From Bryobacterales bacterium (GTDB lineage: Bacteria; Acidobacteriota; Terriglobia; Bryobacterales; UBA6623), in NCBI GenBank assembly GCA_026713545.1, contig JAPOOG010000072.1:31701-95700 (forward strand): 64,000 bases of DNA, written 5' to 3'. The notes beneath the pieces were generated by a model. That model was not told the DNA's origin, did not search any database, and saw only the letters and a list, made by a program, of their open reading frames with translations. A program made the position numbers and the translations under genes. Positions 5,784 to 22,036 of the stretch are shown here, piece by piece; position 1 is the first letter of the stretch, and the number at the start of each line of letters is the position of its first letter.

Positions 5784-7463
5784 TCAGCGCCCGACTCGGA
5801 TCTCGTCGGGGGTCAGGAAGCCGTCGGCGTCGGCGTCGATGGCATCGAATCGCCGGCTGAGCTGAGGCGGCGCCTCCTCTCTGCTGATTTTGCCGTCGCC
5901 GTCGGCATCGGAGCGCATCATCCTTGCCGCGCGGTCGCCGCCCCCTCGTCCGCCCATCCGCCCACGCATCGCGGCGAGCTCCTGTTCGTCCAAGAGCCCG
6001 TCTCCATTCGCATCGAGCTGCTCGAAACGCTCCTGCAAACGCGCTGGAACCTCATCGATGCTCAGCTTGCCGTCGCCGTCGGCATCACGCTGGATCCAGG
6101 CGCCGCGGCCTCTGCGCGAGGCTGCGCGCTGCATCATGGTCTCGATCTCGGACGGTTCGACGTAGCCGTCGCCATTCTCGTCCATGCGGTCGAATCGCCG
6201 GCGCATCGGCTCGGGGAGCTCCTCCGGCATGAGGCGGTCGTCGCCGTCGGTGTCCATCGCAAGCAGACGCTCGATCATCCCCTCCGGGTTGCCGAAGCCG
6301 CCCGGCCCAAACGGCCCTGCTCCCCTGCCGGGCCGGCCGCCGCGTCCGCGCCCGCGGCGGGGGCCGTCGCTGTTGAAGTCCATGCGGCGCGAGACGACGC
6401 GGCCGGCGTCGCGGTTCACGTTCCAGGAAATCAGATACTCCTGGGTGACCGGCCGGCACCACTGCTTCGTGCAAGCGAAGTACCGGATCTTCAGTCCCAG
6501 CGGCTCACGCGCTTCGTCGAGCTTCACGTCAACCAGAAACTCGCGCGGGTCGGCGTCGGCGTCCTCTTTCACATCCGGCCCCTTCATTCTTGTCGGAGAA
6601 ATCCCGATGCCTTCCGGCGGCGTCAACTCGACATCCATCGCCGGCGCACGGTTGTTCCAATACACGCCGTGGATCGGATCCGGCAGGATGGTCAAGTAGA
6701 GCTTCCCTTCCCCGGTGCTCAGCAGCTTCCGCTCGGCTTCGGCGCGCAGTTTCGCGTAGAACGGCTCGCTGGTCTTTTCCTGGCGGGGCTCGGTCCGCAA
6801 GGTGCGGAAGAACCCTTGCTTCCGGATGCGCGGAACCACCCCCGTCGGAGCATGATCCGGCGGGGGCTTGATCTTCATGTTCAGTTCCGCAACCTCGGTC
6901 GGGTTATCCACAGGCCCGACGAATTCCTCGAGATCTTTCCGAAGCTGCGACGGATTGCTCCACGCACGCACGCGCAGCACCTTGCCCTCGGGGTCGAGAA
7001 GATACTCGGAATTCGGCCGGTCTCCGATGGCGTGCCTGAGATCGTTCGTCATCGTGTCGGCGATCCAGGGAATCTCCGATCCCAAGGTGCGCCTGGCCTC
7101 CTGGATGTGCATCAGACGCTCTTCGAGCGTCAGCGGATTGACGTAGCCGTTCAGCTCCGGGTGCGCCAGGGCCTTGTAGAGATAGACGAACCGCACTCCT
7201 TTCGGCGAATAATCCCGATAGATGGTCTCCAACCTGGAGACGTTGCGGATGAACGGCGGTCAGGTCAAACAGCCGTTGACGATGACCGTGTACTTGCCCT
7301 TGAGGCTCCGTGTGTTGAATCTTTTGCCCGCGGCATCGTGGACGTCGATTTCCGGGAATGGATCTCCGGGGGCCAGCGGCATCGGACCGCGATTCTGGGC
7401 GGCCCCCGGCGCGGCCGTCAACAGCATTCCCAGCATGAGCGCCGCGAAATGAGAAGGTTTCAT
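5784..7463 (-). CDS. putative selenoprotein: deiodinase-like thioredoxin-fold protein with C-terminal EF-hand repeats (TGA at 7260-7262 read as Sec68)
   Basis: Signal peptide MKPSHFAALMLGMLLTAAPGAAQ, then ...KGKYTVIVNGCLT-U-PPFIRNVSRLETIYRDYSPKGVRFVYLYKALAHPELNGY..., then EF-hand loops DTDGDDRLMPEE, DENGDGYVEPSE, DADGDGKLSIDE, DANGDGLLDEQE, DADGDGKISREE, DADADGFLTPDE. ORFs 7260..7592 and 5784..7232 share a frame and are separated only by the TGA. Confidence 0.82.
7225..7241 (-). promoter_or_regulatory. candidate bacterial SECIS hairpin
   Basis: Minus-strand GUCUCC-AGGUU-GGAGAC: 6 perfect pairs, 5-nt loop with G at loop position 2, loop begins 24 nt after the UGA. Confidence 0.7.
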
Positions 7464-8242: not shown

Positions 8243-9367
8243 TCACGCACCGCTCTCGGCCACTAGAAACTCGCGCACGCAATCCTCGTTGAGGGTCACG
8301 CCCAGTCCGGGCCGGTCGGGCACGGTGATCAGGCCATCCGAGTCAGCCTGCAACCGCTCGACCGCCAAGTCGTGGCGCAGCGGCGAATCCTCGACGCAGT
8401 CCTCGAAGATGAACGCGGAGGGCGCCGTGGCCAGCCAGTGCAGACAGGCCGCCACGCTGACGGGCGTCTTGTAGCAATGGTTCACGACTCGTCCCCCCGA
8501 GTCCTCGACCTGGCGGCGTATGACCTGGCCGTCGGTAAAACCGTTTCGCGCCAAGTCGACCTGATAGATGTCCAGGGCATGACGCTTGATCCAGGGATGG
8601 TAGGCCCAACGGCCGCACTCCCCCTCGCCGGCGGCAATGGGCACCGGCGAACGATCGCGCAGCCACACATAGCCGTCGAGATCATCCTGTGAAAGAGGCT
8701 CCTCGAGCCAGTCGATGTCGAACTCGGCAAACTGGCGCGCACGCCGCAGAGCGGTGCGGGAGTCCCAAACACAGCCGGCGTCTATGAGCACCGTATGGTC
8801 GCCGCAACCGGCGCGGGCGCCGCGGACCAGATCCAGGTCCACCGCTTCCGATGTCCCCATGGGCGCCCATCCGAACTTGACCGCCGTGTAACCGGCCTCG
8901 ATCCAGCGGCGTCCGATCTCGCTGGTTTCCGAACCGTCCCGGCCGAACAGGATGGACGCATAGGCGCGAATGCGGTCGTGCCGCTTGCCTCCGAGCAGTT
9001 GATGGACCGGGGCGCCGGCATGTTTTCCCTTCAGGTCCCACAGAGCCAGATCAACCCCGGCCATAGCCGTAATCGCGACGCCGCGCCTTCCGAAATAGAT
9101 GCAGCCGTGGTACATCTTGTCCCAGAGCCGTTCCGTGTCGAGAGGATCCTCGCCGATCAACAACTCGCGCAAGCCGCAGACCTCGGAATGACTGAAGGGT
9201 GCATCGATAACCGCCTGGGCCACTTCCGGGCTGGAATCGACTTCGCCGATACCCTCGAGGCCGGAATCGGTCCGGATGCGGACGAGCAGGGTATCCTGGG
9301 TGCCGGCAGTCTTGTCTTCCACTTGGCGCAGCCGCAGTATCTGAGTGATCACACGTTCAATCTTCAT
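8243..9367 (-). CDS. mandelate racemase/muconate lactonizing enzyme family (enolase superfamily)
   Basis: MKIERVITQILRLRQVEDKT...AGVDLALWDLKGKHAGAPVHQLLGGK...VKFGWAPMG...WLEEPLSQDDL. Confidence 0.88.
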   Translation of the reverse strand: MKIERVITQILRLRQVEDKTAGTQDTLLVRIRTDSGLEGIGEVDSSPEVAQAVIDAPFSHSEVCGLRELLIGEDPLDTERLWDKMYHGCIYFGRRGVAITAMAGVDLALWDLKGKHAGAPVHQLLGGKRHDRIRAYASILFGRDGSETSEIGRRWIEAGYTAVKFGWAPMGTSEAVDLDLVRGARAGCGDHTVLIDAGCVWDSRTALRRARQFAEFDIDWLEEPLSQDDLDGYVWLRDRSPVPIAAGEGECGRWAYHPWIKRHALDIYQVDLARNGFTDGQVIRRQVEDSGGRVVNHCYKTPVSVAACLHWLATAPSAFIFEDCVEDSPLRHDLAVERLQADSDGLITVPDRPGLGVTLNEDCVREFLVAESGA

Positions 9368-9456: not shown

Positions 9457-10149
9457 GTGGTACGGACTCAGCGGAGGCTTGACAATCTGCAGTCATCTTC
9501 TCGTGAGAGGGCCGAACCGAGCCACCGTGGTACTATCGCCTCATTGCTGGTGGGAGGATACATCCTGGTTGGCGGGAAGAGCTCCCGCCTGGGGCAGGAC
9601 AAGGCGCTGCTGGAGATCGAGGGGCAGCCGCTTGCCGTCCGCATCGCCGCATGCATGCGGCCGGTGGTCGATTCGGTGACACTCGTCGGACCCGCGGCGA
9701 AGTACGGCCGGCTGGGTCCACGGGTCATTCCCGATGCGGTTGCGGATTTCGGGCCGCTGGGCGGGCTGCTGGCGGCGCTCGAGGACTCGACGCACAAGTG
9801 GAGCCTGATCGCGGCCTGTGATATGCCCTGCGTCACGACGGAACTGTTCCGGTCGCTCGTCGACCGGACGGCGGATTGCTCCGAAGACGTGGTGCTGCCC
9901 TATGACGGCGAGGGACGGCCTGAACCGCTTTGCGCCGCCTACCGATCGACCGCTCGGACCGCAGTCCGGAGGGCGGTCGCAAGCGGCGTACACAAAGTCA
10001 TGAGAGCGCTGGACGGTTTGAAGGTGTTGCGACTGATGCCCGCCGACTACGCGGCTGTCGACCCCGATGGCCGCGCTTTCACCAACCTGAATCACCCCGG
10101 CGATCTCGAACAGGCCGGCCTCGGCGGCAACAGCCGGCGGACGCGATGA
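9457..10149 (+). CDS. mobA: molybdenum cofactor guanylyltransferase (MobA); true start probably near 9544-9550
   Basis: YILVGGKSSRLGQDKALLEIEGQPL nucleotidyltransferase motif, ...DFGPLGGLLAALE...IAACDMPCV. Confidence 0.82.
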   Translation: MVRTQRRLDNLQSSSRERAEPSHRGTIASLLVGGYILVGGKSSRLGQDKALLEIEGQPLAVRIAACMRPVVDSVTLVGPAAKYGRLGPRVIPDAVADFGPLGGLLAALEDSTHKWSLIAACDMPCVTTELFRSLVDRTADCSEDVVLPYDGEGRPEPLCAAYRSTARTAVRRAVASGVHKVMRALDGLKVLRLMPADYAAVDPDGRAFTNLNHPGDLEQAGLGGNSRRTR

Positions 10150-11309
10150 ACGCTGCACGGACACGCTCTTTCCCGCCTCATCTCGTCCGCACGCGTTTGC
10201 GCACCCTCGGCGGCCGCCGCGTCACACCGCCGTTCCTCACTCTCTACGTGACGACGCGCTGCGACGAGCAGTGCATCCATTGCTACTACTGGGACGAGCT
10301 GAACCCCAAGCCGAACCGCGACTTCACTCTGGAAGAGTTCGACAAGACGCTCGCCTCGATGGGCGAAATCTTCAACCTCTTCATCGGCGGAGGCGAACCT
10401 TTCCTGCGCGCGGACTTGGCCGACATCCTGCTTGCCGCCGCCCGCCGGAACGACGTTGCGAACGTTTACGTTCCGACCAACGGCCAGCACACCGGGCGCA
10501 CGGTCGAGATTCTGGAAGAGACGCTGACAAAAGCACCGGCCATGCGCTTCCATCTGAACCTCAGCGTCGATCACGTCGACGAAGAGATCCATGACCGGAT
10601 TCGAGGCAAGACCCGGGGGCATCAGCGCCTGCTTGAAACGCTCGATGCGATCCGGCCGTTACGGAAGCGGTTCAGCAACCTGATCGTTCACACCCTGACG
10701 ACGGTGATGAAAGAGAACCAGAACCGCATCATGGAGATCTATGAAGAGCTGCAACGCCGCTTTCAGCCAGATGGAACTTCGTTCAACTATTGCCGCGGGC
10801 ATCCGCTCGAACCTGAGCAGACCGAAGTCGATCCGGCGATCTACCGGCGGCTGATGGATCGCATGGAGCAGGACTTCAAGGCGGGTCGCATCTCGCACGC
10901 CGGCCCAAGCGAGTACACCGGCGCGAACCACATCCTCGACCAGGAGGTTCGCCGTACCGTCGAGCGGACCGTAGTCCGGCAGCGGGCGCAGTTCTCGTGC
11001 GTGTCGGGGCGGCTGGCCGGCGTCATCTACAGCAACGGCGATGTGACCGAGTGCGAGATCAACAACTCGAAGCTCGGAAATCTGCGTGATGTGGACTACG
11101 ACTTCCGGCGTTTGTGGTTTACGGATGAGGCGCGCGAAGTGGCGCACAAGGCCGCGGACGGCTGCTTCTGCACCCACGAATGCGGACACTACGCTTCGAC
11201 GATCTATCGTTTCCCGAAAGTGGTGAAGATTGCGGCCAAGGCTTTGGCAGAGCGTCCCCGACTCGAAAAGGGCAACACGTTGGTCGAGCAGGATGGCCCG
11301 CAAACTTGA
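10146..11309 (+). CDS. radical SAM protein with SPASM-like C-terminus
   Basis: CDEQCIHCYYWDE (CxxxCxxC), GGGEPFLR, Cys-rich C-terminal region. Start overlaps mobA stop. Confidence 0.88.
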   Translation: MNAARTRSFPPHLVRTRLRTLGGRRVTPPFLTLYVTTRCDEQCIHCYYWDELNPKPNRDFTLEEFDKTLASMGEIFNLFIGGGEPFLRADLADILLAAARRNDVANVYVPTNGQHTGRTVEILEETLTKAPAMRFHLNLSVDHVDEEIHDRIRGKTRGHQRLLETLDAIRPLRKRFSNLIVHTLTTVMKENQNRIMEIYEELQRRFQPDGTSFNYCRGHPLEPEQTEVDPAIYRRLMDRMEQDFKAGRISHAGPSEYTGANHILDQEVRRTVERTVVRQRAQFSCVSGRLAGVIYSNGDVTECEINNSKLGNLRDVDYDFRRLWFTDEAREVAHKAADGCFCTHECGHYASTIYRFPKVVKIAAKALAERPRLEKGNTLVEQDGPQT

Positions 11310-11940
11310 GCTGCAGGTCGCTCTCGACTGCCTGAGGATCGAGGAAGCCCTGTGGCTGATGGAGCAGGTTCACCCGTACGTGGACATCGTCGAGATCGGC
11401 ACCCCACTGATCTTCGAAGCGGGCTTGGCGGCAGTCGAACAGATCAAGTCGCGATATCCGGACAAGAGCTGCGTTGCCGACCTCAAGATCATGGACGCCG
11501 GCGGGGTCGAGGCCAGCAGCGGCTTCAAGCGCGGCGCAGATATCGTAACCATACTCGGTGTCGCAGCCGACGTGACGTTTCAGGCGGCCCTGGAGGCCGC
11601 CGCGGACCACGGCGGCAAAGTGATGGCCGACCTGATCAATGCTCCCGACCCGATTCGCCGCTGTCGGGAACTCGAGCTGATCGGCGTTCCGATCCTCTGT
11701 CTGCACACCGCTTTCGATCGACAGGGCGTTCAAAAGGCCTATGCACAGCCGCTGGCCGAAGTGCGCCGGCAAACGACGTGCCGGCTTGCTGTCGCCGGAG
11801 GCATTACCCTCGATACCATGCCCGCGGTCATCCAGAACGGCGCCGACGTCGTCATCGTCGGCGGAGCCATTGCCCGCGACCCCAATCCCGGCGAAGCGGC
11901 CGCCGCGATGAAGCAACTCGCCGGGAGCCTGACATCGTGA
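11293..11940 (+). CDS. 3-hexulose-6-phosphate synthase
   Basis: LELQVALDCLRIEEAL...DIVEIGTPLIFEAG...VADLKIMDAGGVEA...VAGGITLDTMPAVIQNGADVVIVGGAI, OMPDC-superfamily HPS pattern. Confidence 0.87.
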   Translation: MARKLELQVALDCLRIEEALWLMEQVHPYVDIVEIGTPLIFEAGLAAVEQIKSRYPDKSCVADLKIMDAGGVEASSGFKRGADIVTILGVAADVTFQAALEAAADHGGKVMADLINAPDPIRRCRELELIGVPILCLHTAFDRQGVQKAYAQPLAEVRRQTTCRLAVAGGITLDTMPAVIQNGADVVIVGGAIARDPNPGEAAAAMKQLAGSLTS

Positions 11941-12503
11941 ATACCCTGAAAAGGACCCTGGCCGAGATGCAGGCGGAAATCCGCGATTGCCTCGATGCCG
12001 TGTCCGATCAAGCCGTCGAGCAGGCCGTCGAGGACATCCTGTCCGCCGGCAAGATCGTGCTTGCCGCCGCCGGCCGGAGCGGTGCGGCCCTGCGAGCCGG
12101 AGCGATCCGGCTCAGACACCTCGGCCTCGACGCCTACCTGAGCGGCGAGACATCGACTCCTCCCGTCGGTCCCGGCGACTTGCTGATCGCCGGTTCCGGC
12201 TCGGGACGCACGCAGAGCGTTCTCGCACAAGCCGGGAAGGCCCAACAAGCCGGCACGAGGCTGCTGCTGTTTACTATCGACCCGGCTTCGCCCCTTGCCG
12301 AGTCGGCAGACACGGTCGTAGTGATTCCCGCCTCCTCGCCGAAAGCCGAAGGTCCGGCTCAGGCCAAAACGTCCATTCAGCCCATGGCCTCACTGTTCGA
12401 ACAGTGCCTTTTCCTGTTGATGGATGCAATGGTGATCCTGCTGATGAAGCGGCTCGGAGCGACCTCCGAAGACATGTTCAAGCGCCACGCCAACCTGGAG
12501 TGA
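11937..12503 (+). CDS. 6-phospho-3-hexuloisomerase (SIS domain)
   Basis: AGKIVLAAAGRSGAALRAGAIRLRHLGLDAYLSGETSTPPVGPGDLLIAGSGSGRT; GTG start overlaps HPS stop by 4 bp. Confidence 0.87.
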   Translation: MNTLKRTLAEMQAEIRDCLDAVSDQAVEQAVEDILSAGKIVLAAAGRSGAALRAGAIRLRHLGLDAYLSGETSTPPVGPGDLLIAGSGSGRTQSVLAQAGKAQQAGTRLLLFTIDPASPLAESADTVVVIPASSPKAEGPAQAKTSIQPMASLFEQCLFLLMDAMVILLMKRLGATSEDMFKRHANLE

Positions 12504-18123: not shown

Positions 18124-19449
18124 ATGAGCGCGACGAGCAGCGGCGGCACGAACGGAGACGCGACGACCGTCGGCAACTACTTCGTCTCCAACTATCCGCC
18201 GTACAGCTTCTGGAATGCGCAGGCTGCCGAACAGGCCGTGGCCGCCCTGGACCATCCGCCGAGCATGGAAGGGCCTTTTGGGCTGTATCTTCACATCCCG
18301 TTCTGTCGCAAGCGCTGCCGTTTCTGCTACTTCAAGGTTTATACCGACAACGATTCGTCGGAGATCACCCGGTATCTCGAAGGCGTCGCGAAAGAGTTGG
18401 CGCTCTACTCCAACAAGCCGGCCGTTAGCGGGCGCAAACCAAAGTTCATCTATTTCGGCGGCGGCACTCCGTCGTACATTTCGACGCAACAGTTATCCCG
18501 GCTCGTGAATGCCATCCAGCCGCTCTTCCCCTGGGATGAAGCCGAGGAGATCACCTTCGAGTGCGAACCGGGCACGATCACCAAACATAAACTCGAGATC
18601 CTCCGCGACATCGGCGTGACCCGCCTGAGCCTCGGAATCGAGAACTTCAACGATGAGATCCTCGAAGTCAACGGCCGCGCCCATGGATCAAGGGAGGTCG
18701 ACCGGGCCTACGGTTTCGCGCGCGATACCGGCTTTCCGCAAATCAACATCGACCTGATTGCCGGGATGATCGGCGAAACCGATTCCAACTGGGAAAAATG
18801 CGTCCGTAAGAGCATCGCGCTACAGCCTGACAGCATCACGATCTACCAAATGGAGCTGCCCCCGAACACCGTCATCTCCAAGGAGATGCGCATCAATGGG
18901 CAGCCCGCTCCTGTTGCGGACTGGAGGACGAAGCGCCATTGGACGGGCTACGCGTTCGCAGAGTTCGAAAAAGCCGGCTATACGCTGACGAGCGGCTACA
19001 CGGCTGTCAGGGACACGGCGACGGCCACCTTTCTCTACCGCGACCTGCTCTGGAGCGGCGCTGACATGTTAGGCATCGGGGTGTCCTCCTTCGGCCATCT
19101 GCAGCGAGTGCACATCCAAAACGAGCATCACATGCAGCCCTATCTCGAAGCCGTCGAGGACGGTGAGATTCCGATCCGCCGCGCGCTCCCGACGACTGCA
19201 GAGGAGCGGATGATCCGTGAGTTCATTTTGCAAATGAAGAAAGGCCGTGTCGACAAACTGTACTTCCAATCCAAGTTTGGGGTTGACCTACAGGACCGCT
19301 TCAGTACGGCCCTTGAAGAACTGTGCCGGAGAGGTCAGGTCGAGATCGACTCCGCCAGCATCACGCTCACCCGCGAGGGGTTGCTCCGCGTCGATCAGTT
19401 GCTGCATCGATTCTTTCTTCCCCGTCATCGAGTCGCGAACGCCGCATAG
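18124..19449 (+). CDS. coproporphyrinogen III oxidase-like (HemN/HemW-like) radical SAM protein
   Basis: YLHIPFCRKRCRFCYFKVYTD, FGGGTPSYIS, INIDLIAGMIGET, TIYQMELPPNT. Confidence 0.88.
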   Translation: MSATSSGGTNGDATTVGNYFVSNYPPYSFWNAQAAEQAVAALDHPPSMEGPFGLYLHIPFCRKRCRFCYFKVYTDNDSSEITRYLEGVAKELALYSNKPAVSGRKPKFIYFGGGTPSYISTQQLSRLVNAIQPLFPWDEAEEITFECEPGTITKHKLEILRDIGVTRLSLGIENFNDEILEVNGRAHGSREVDRAYGFARDTGFPQINIDLIAGMIGETDSNWEKCVRKSIALQPDSITIYQMELPPNTVISKEMRINGQPAPVADWRTKRHWTGYAFAEFEKAGYTLTSGYTAVRDTATATFLYRDLLWSGADMLGIGVSSFGHLQRVHIQNEHHMQPYLEAVEDGEIPIRRALPTTAEERMIREFILQMKKGRVDKLYFQSKFGVDLQDRFSTALEELCRRGQVEIDSASITLTREGLLRVDQLLHRFFLPRHRVANAA

Positions 19450-19463
19450 GTCCCGCATCTACG

Positions 19464-20711
19464 ATGAACCGCTACGACGCCATCGTGATCGGCGCAGGGC
19501 CTTCCGGTTCCACCGCCGCGGCAGTTCTGGCTTCCAAAGGCCGCCGCGTCCTCGCCATCGAGCGGGAAAAGTTTCCACGGTATCACGTCGGGGAGTCGCT
19601 CATCCCGTACACCTATTTCCCACTCGAGCGCATCGGCATGATCGAGCGCATGAAGAAATCACACTTCCCCAGCAAGTACAGCGTCCAGTTCGTCGGCCGC
19701 AGCGGGAACCTCTCGCAGCCGTTCTACTTCTTCGAGCACCTCAACCACGAGGCAGCCTGCACCTGGCAGGTGCTTCGCAGCGAGTTCGACCAGATGCTTA
19801 TGGACAACGCCCGCGAAAAGGGCGTCAAAGTTCTGGAAGAAACAAAGGTCACAGAGACGATCGATGAAGACGGCGCCGTTACCGGCGTGCGTGCGAAAGC
19901 CAAGGACGGGAGCATGCGGGAGTTCCGCGCACCGATCACCATCGACGCCTCTGGGCGCGACTCACTCTCGATGCTCCGCAACAACTGGCGTGTGCGGGAC
20001 GACCAGCTCAAGAAGATTTCGATCTGGACCTATTACAAAGGCGCTCTTCGCGACCCCGGCCGTGATGAAGGCGCAACCACCATCGCCTCTATTCCTGAAC
20101 GCGGTTGGTTTTGGTACATCCCTCTCCCCGACGACATGGTCAGCGTCGGTGTCGTCGCGGAAAGCGAATACCTATATCGCGACACACGCGACCTCGAAGA
20201 AATCTTCCTTCGCGAGGTCACCAACAACCGCTGGATCGAGAAGCATCTTGCGATCGGTCGAAGAACGGAACCCTTGCGGGTCACCGGAGAGTTCTCCTAT
20301 CGCTCTCGCTACACTGCGGCCGACGGGTTGGTCCTGACTGGAGACGCCTTCGGTTTCCTCGACCCCGTGTTTTCCTCGGGACTCTTCTTCGCGCTGCGGG
20401 GCGGAGAACTCGTCGCCGACGCCGTCGACGCGGCGCTCACTGCAGGCGACTACTCAGCCGGGCGCTTCAACGACTACGCCAACGAGATGTGCAGCGGTAT
20501 GGAAGCAATGCGCCGCCTGGTCTACGCTTTCTACGACCACGGCTTCAGCTTCGCTGACCTGATGAAGGAGCACCCTGAACTCAGCCCCGACCTGACCGAT
20601 TGCCTGATTGGAAACCTATCCCGCGATTTCGAGCCACTCTTCAAAGCAGTGTCGAAGTTCGCCGCCGTCCCGGATCCGCTGTCCCACGGCCGTCCGCTGG
20701 CGGCCGCGTGA
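19464..20711 (+). CDS. FAD-dependent oxidoreductase, tryptophan halogenase / geranylgeranyl reductase-like family
   Basis: YDAIVIGAGPSGSTAAAVLASKGRRVLAIEREKFPRYHVGESLIP; LVLTGDAFGFLDPVFSSGLFFAL. Confidence 0.85.
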   Translation: MNRYDAIVIGAGPSGSTAAAVLASKGRRVLAIEREKFPRYHVGESLIPYTYFPLERIGMIERMKKSHFPSKYSVQFVGRSGNLSQPFYFFEHLNHEAACTWQVLRSEFDQMLMDNAREKGVKVLEETKVTETIDEDGAVTGVRAKAKDGSMREFRAPITIDASGRDSLSMLRNNWRVRDDQLKKISIWTYYKGALRDPGRDEGATTIASIPERGWFWYIPLPDDMVSVGVVAESEYLYRDTRDLEEIFLREVTNNRWIEKHLAIGRRTEPLRVTGEFSYRSRYTAADGLVLTGDAFGFLDPVFSSGLFFALRGGELVADAVDAALTAGDYSAGRFNDYANEMCSGMEAMRRLVYAFYDHGFSFADLMKEHPELSPDLTDCLIGNLSRDFEPLFKAVSKFAAVPDPLSHGRPLAAA

Positions 20712-22036
20712 ACGGCCGCCGGTATGTTGTTGCCAACCGCATGAACTCATTGAAGACGCTGCATCTCGACAGAGGCGCGCTCAAAGCGCACCAGTTGAAG
20801 AAACTGCATGCTCTTCTAAAGACGACCCTTGTCGATAACTCCTTCTACAAGGCGAAGCTGCGGGCCGCTGGTACCGATCACCTGCCCGAGAGCCTCGACG
20901 ACTTCATCGCCCGGACACCCATGACGACCAAGCGGGAGCTGGTCGACGATCAACGACGGAACCCACCGTACGGGTCCAACCGTGCCTTCCCGATCGAGCA
21001 CTACTGTCGGTACCACCAGACCAGCGGTACGACCTCCACTCCAGTTCGCTGGCTTGACACGCGCGAGAGTTGGAACTGGATGGTCGACTCCTGGAAGCAT
21101 ATCTTCGAGTCCGCCGGAATCACGGCACAAGATCGGATCTTCTTCCCCTTCTCCTTCGGTCCGTTCCTCGGTTTCTGGTCAGCCTTTGACGCGGCGAACC
21201 GGATGGGCAGTCTCACGATTCCCGGCGGCGGACAGCGCAGTGCGGCACGGCTCACCACCATCATCGACAATGCCGTCACCGCAATCTGCGCCACGCCTAC
21301 GTACGCGATTCATCTTGGGGAAGCGGCCCGCGAAGAGAACATCACCCTCTCGGCCTCGAAGGTTCGGGCGATCATCGTTGCCGGCGAACCGGGCGGCACG
21401 ATCCCGTCAACTCGCGGGCTGATCGAAAAACTCTGGCCGGGCACCCGCGTGTTCGATCACTACGGCATGACTGAAGTCGGGCCTGTCAGCTACGAATGCC
21501 CCCGCCGCCGGGGCGTCGCCCACGTGATGGAATCGGCCTACCTTGCCGAGGTCATCGATCCGGAAACACTCGCGCGGGTGAAGCCGGACGACATCGGCGA
21601 ACTTGTCCTTACGCCCCTCGGCCGCCTCGGGTCACCCGTGATTCGCTACCGGACGGGCGACCTCGTACGACCCGCGAACCCCGCACGCTGCGAGTGCGGC
21701 AGCTACGAGCTGTCTTTGGAAGGGGGCATCCTCGGGCGGACAGATGACATGGTGATCGTGCGCGGAGTCAACCTCTACCCCAGCGCCGTCGAGGACGTGC
21801 TGCGAGCTGATGGCGGGATCGCGGAATTCCAAGTTGATATCAGCACCAACAACGACTTGACGGAGCTGCGGCTTCGGGTCGAGCCTTCCGCCCCGGTCAC
21901 GGACCCATCTCGTTTCGCAATTCATGTCGAGCAGGCCCTTCACCGCGCGTTCGGCCTTCGCTTCTCGGTGGAATGCGTCACCCCCGGCACACTTCCTCGA
22001 TTCGAGATGAAAGCAAAGCGCTGGAAACACAAATGA
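20708..22036 (+). CDS. phenylacetate-CoA ligase (PaaK)-like AMP-dependent ligase
   Basis: HYCRYHQTSGTTSTPVRW, VFDHYGMTEVGPVSYEC, RTGDLV, GRTDDMVIVRGVNLYPSAVE. GTG at 20708 overlaps upstream stop; ATG alternative at 20741. Confidence 0.88.
   Translation: MNGRRYVVANRMNSLKTLHLDRGALKAHQLKKLHALLKTTLVDNSFYKAKLRAAGTDHLPESLDDFIARTPMTTKRELVDDQRRNPPYGSNRAFPIEHYCRYHQTSGTTSTPVRWLDTRESWNWMVDSWKHIFESAGITAQDRIFFPFSFGPFLGFWSAFDAANRMGSLTIPGGGQRSAARLTTIIDNAVTAICATPTYAIHLGEAAREENITLSASKVRAIIVAGEPGGTIPSTRGLIEKLWPGTRVFDHYGMTEVGPVSYECPRRRGVAHVMESAYLAEVIDPETLARVKPDDIGELVLTPLGRLGSPVIRYRTGDLVRPANPARCECGSYELSLEGGILGRTDDMVIVRGVNLYPSAVEDVLRADGGIAEFQVDISTNNDLTELRLRVEPSAPVTDPSRFAIHVEQALHRAFGLRFSVECVTPGTLPRFEMKAKRWKHK

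Follow-up and report, generated by a model that had tools for sequence, protein, structure and literature searches.

The window, a stretch of 64,000 nucleotides, comes from a family of Bryobacterales (Acidobacteriota, Terriglobia) that is known from metagenome-assembled genomes. The names of several isolates suggest that the family is sponge-associated or marine. Four genes follow each other on the forward strand: a homologue of the molybdenum cofactor guanylyltransferase gene mobA (9544..10149, starting with TTG at 9544 or GTG at 9550), a gene for a 387 aa radical SAM protein of predicted Twitch-like type (10146..11309), hxlA for 3-hexulose-6-phosphate synthase (HPS; 11293..11940), and hxlB for 6-phospho-3-hexuloisomerase (PHI; 11937..12503). 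An enolase-superfamily gene (mandelate racemase/dehydratase-like; MR_MLE_C, 172 bits) is found at 8243..9367 on the reverse strand. It is a divergent neighbour outside the operon, and its position is the same in the sister genome G004.

The four reading frames overlap end to end, as a preliminary description of this DNA had reported, and all of the junctions it gave were confirmed. The radical SAM ATG at 10146 overlaps the mobA stop at 10149 by 4 nt (ATGA), the HPS ATG at 11293 precedes the radical SAM stop at 11309 (17 nt overlap), and the PHI GTG at 11937 overlaps the HPS stop at 11940, again by 4 nt (GTGA). Of the 30 pairs of same-strand neighbours called in the window, six overlap, and the run from mobA to PHI accounts for three of these; this count uses the true radical SAM start, which the gene caller had placed at 10197. 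The mobA start at 9457 proposed earlier was abandoned: in G004 that GTG is followed in frame, 11 codons on, by a TAG, and alignments to homologues from the family begin at residues 3-5 of the protein that starts at 9544. A scan for promoters and terminators gave a signal no greater than in shuffled sequences.

Identity of the four proteins

HPS and PHI were both assigned at the equivalog level. HPS scored 236.7 bits against TIGR03128 (cut-off 200), and its motifs ADLKIMDAG and LHTAFDRQ align with the solved structures 9lj9 and 3ajx, with DxKxxD and the downstream His conserved. PHI scored 195.6 bits against TIGR03127 (cut-off 160) and aligns over its full length, through HANLE, to Bacillus subtilis YckF (1m3s). 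The earlier assignment of a formaldehyde-fixing pair therefore stands, and by homology both enzymes probably act in formaldehyde fixation. In B. subtilis hxlAB is induced by formaldehyde and essential for its dissimilation (PMC8879981). The window resembles that locus in having HPS and PHI adjacent and in the same order, with PHI matching YckF/HxlB along its length, but here mobA and the radical SAM gene precede the pair. Among the genes adjoining the operon, none for an HxlR-type regulator was seen. Two other Terriglobia loci (L079, L080) also carry an HPS-PHI pair with HPS above the cut-off. In these, however, PHI comes first and a LysR-like regulator adjoins, and identity to the window proteins is 40-41% for HPS and 37-43% for PHI.

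The mobA product is an ordinary homologue. It matches Pfam NTP_transf_3 (121 bits) and the solved Escherichia coli MobA (E 4.5e-15), to which it is alike in length and in the nucleotide- and metal-binding motifs (LxGGxSxRxGxDK-like and CDxP, both aligned). It nevertheless falls under the strict MobA equivalog cut-offs (TIGR02665: 100.8 bits, cut-off 151.85). Since the motifs are intact, "MobA-like" is the safe name.

The radical SAM protein (Pfam Radical_SAM, 69.7 bits) carries the expected CX3CX2C motif as C39-X3-C43-X2-C46, with C39 replaced by a gap in one of 31 alignment rows. In the C-terminal part C285, C303, C340 and C342 are invariant in all 31 rows, and C346 varies. The arrangement C285-X12-G298-X4-C303 followed by C340-X-C342 fits the Twitch pattern, and these four residues would suffice as ligands for a single auxiliary cluster. 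The protein is thus predicted to be Twitch-like, with one auxiliary cluster. The earlier label "SPASM" was too strong (four C-terminal Cys are invariant), and a full SPASM domain with two auxiliary clusters was rejected as that would take seven. An AlphaFold2 model built from 31 diverse homologues reached a pLDDT of 90 (an earlier model from 10 sequences: 52.9). The nearest solved folds include anSME, SkfB, SuiB, DesII and MoaA, at a query TM of about 0.5-0.6. With SkfB, MoaA, anSME and SuiB the protein shares the radical SAM barrel and a C-terminal Cys cluster domain, but identity to them is 14-19% at this TM, and the protein could be placed in none of the named subfamilies. None of the NCBIfam equivalogs was reached, the best being NirJ2 (57.7 bits, cut-off 500). 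As a family-wide radical SAM protein without named relatives, it is a tractable orphan enzyme.

A role as a RiPP maturase was considered and rejected. Small precursor peptides had been proposed as something to look for near the homologues, but within 3 kb of the radical SAM gene none is conserved between genera. The only small ORFs common to genera in that range are alternative frames of the cysE region, and no NCBIfam maturase model came near its cut-off.

Conservation within the genus and distribution in the family

In G004 the start and stop codons at all three junctions are identical to those in the window's own genome (G000). Between these two genomes the four genes have diverged by a dS of 0.11-0.16, with dN/dS at 0.29 for mobA, 0.12 for the radical SAM gene, 0.18 for HPS and 0.20 for PHI, so all four genes are under purifying selection. 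The radical SAM protein of the closest relative is 97% identical. G003, the third genome of the genus, is more distant; there only 2 nt separate mobA from the radical SAM gene. The G003 contig stops at the 3' end of the radical SAM gene, and the step at which HPS joined therefore cannot be dated. The shared junction codons in G004, together with the mobA-radical SAM adjacency in G003, indicate that the arrangement has persisted for a while.

Outside the genus the pattern is different for each gene. The radical SAM gene was found in 17/18 family genomes, the exception being a genome that is 74% complete. A mobA homologue is also present in 17/18 (one of them a weak match); beyond the genus it occupies other loci, unlinked to the radical SAM gene. 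HPS was found in two of the 18, the sister pair with the operon, and above the cut-off in only 3/396 sampled genomes of the phylum (G000 among them). The family genomes are drafts and the absence of HPS may partly reflect gaps, although 15/18 reach a completeness of 90% or more and show little contamination. In all other genera that carry the radical SAM gene it occurs without HPS/PHI, and its neighbours vary from genus to genus. All eleven g6 genomes have a secreted protein upstream of it (DUF1080-like by eye; no NCBIfam match), and most have a serine O-acetyltransferase downstream or a few kb off. With HPS rare and the radical SAM gene spread through the family, the radical SAM enzyme evidently does without HPS/PHI, and the four-gene combination is young.

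The preliminary description had named two things that together would count against its reading, an overlap that is not conserved and a radical SAM protein from a known unrelated subfamily. The overlap turned out to be conserved only within the genus; on the second point the reading survives, as none of the named subfamilies accommodates the protein.

The distribution of HPS/PHI suggests acquisition by transfer. It is the distribution that points this way, because the GC content of the pair does not stand out and no donor was found: a search among plasmids returned best homologues of about 46-48% identity, and none could be named as the source.

In 77/396 phylum genomes the radical SAM protein has distant relatives, at 27-34% identity. 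Their genes are often followed by those for an MGDG-synthase-like glycosyltransferase and a short-chain dehydrogenase, or sit in a polysaccharide cluster. The first order was read at L135, L137, L139-L143, L145, L147 and L148. At these loci, which come from other families of Acidobacteriota, the cluster recurs and sometimes includes a ferritin-like gene. This hints at envelope chemistry for the groups of the distant relatives; the family's own proteins form a separate clade.

Origin of the arrangement and C1 metabolism

We consider it likely that the four genes are a lineage-specific co-transcription unit, in which an hxlAB-type pair stands behind two family-wide genes, and not a dedicated pathway. 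According to this explanation mobA and the Twitch-type radical SAM gene, which lie apart elsewhere in the family, would have become neighbours in this genus, and the HPS-PHI pair, undetected in the other genera, would have been placed behind them. HPS would condense formaldehyde and ribulose 5-phosphate to hexulose 6-phosphate, which PHI would convert to fructose 6-phosphate, so that formaldehyde is detoxified or assimilated as by B. subtilis hxlAB. MobA would make the guanylated Mo cofactor, and both it and the radical SAM enzyme would work separately from HPS/PHI. The overlaps would then reflect coupled translation of a probable single message and not a single pathway. Read in this way, the locus shows how genes of separate history, brought together only recently, can look like an operon pathway, which is a caution for annotation by gene neighbourhood.

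The preliminary description had proposed that a Mo-dependent C1 oxidation may be linked to formaldehyde handling. A Mo/W-type C1 enzyme does exist: G000 encodes a three-subunit formate dehydrogenase-N (FDH-N; L168 4664-9118, G000:C60), whose alpha (Sec at 196), beta and gamma subunits are all at or above the curated cut-offs, and it has a tRNA-Sec (79 bits). G000 has no other strong molybdopterin oxidoreductase, and among the 18 family genomes FDH-N, an enzyme that would depend on the product of MobA, is confined to the two that have HPS, which is one hint in favour of a C1 link. HPS/PHI may accordingly fix formaldehyde while MobA gives bis-MGD to FDH-N, with a single message co-ordinating the disposal of formaldehyde and formate and the radical SAM gene a passenger. 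If so, uncultured, probably sponge-associated Acidobacteriota would pair ribulose-monophosphate fixation of formaldehyde with a selenium formate dehydrogenase. We regard this as doubtful. The co-occurrence counts only once, G000 and G004 being close sisters; the FDH genes are on another contig than the operon; and mobA occurs throughout the family, with other molybdopterin enzymes depending on it in the other genera.

A direct link between the radical SAM product and formaldehyde, also raised in the preliminary description, fared worse. The Twitch enzyme might release formaldehyde or use a sugar phosphate, with the HPS/PHI added in this genus handling the product; the radical SAM/HPS overlap is kept in G004, and a protein that matches no named subfamily has no assigned substrate. 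This is very unlikely, however, given that the gene is family-wide, stands without HPS/PHI in every other genus where it occurs and has no conserved precursor peptide nearby, that its distant relatives adjoin glycosyltransferase, short-chain dehydrogenase or polysaccharide genes, and that HPS at the phylum loci read (L079, L080, L082, L083) does not adjoin this radical SAM gene. A literature search for radical SAM gene clusters with HPS found nothing relevant. In many archaea that lack the oxidative pentose phosphate pathway, HPS and PHI run in reverse and supply ribulose 5-phosphate. That role is scarcely credible here: 6-phosphogluconate dehydrogenase is present in 18/18 family genomes (387 bits in G000), which makes a dissimilatory cycle possible and reverse use unnecessary, and HPS is not detectable in 16 of the 18. 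Flux through HPS/PHI therefore probably runs in the direction of formaldehyde fixation.

PQQ alcohol dehydrogenases are a plausible source of the formaldehyde. Nine listed in G000 are above the family cut-off and all nine have the DxD motif, which we take to mark the lanthanide type. These enzymes are family-wide and not particular to the genus with the operon. Homologues of the glutathione-type formaldehyde dehydrogenase were found, none of them at the cut-off (253 bits in G000, cut-off 544).

Further probable selenoproteins were observed. The g6 genomes encode a molybdopterin oxidoreductase of another kind, its frame interrupted by a TGA (L169 7386-9305, G008:C4), probably an FdhF-like selenoprotein, and in several genomes it lies near 6-phosphogluconate dehydrogenase. 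In the window itself, at 5784-7436 on the reverse strand, an EF-hand protein gains an N-terminal piece if one TGA is read as Sec. The motif that results, GCLTUPPF, is deiodinase-like; G004 shares this TGA, and the window's own genome has the tRNA-Sec noted above. At 18124-22036 on the forward strand, HemN-like radical SAM, flavin-dependent halogenase/reductase-like and AMP-ligase-like genes stand in tight order, possibly as a small biosynthetic cluster.
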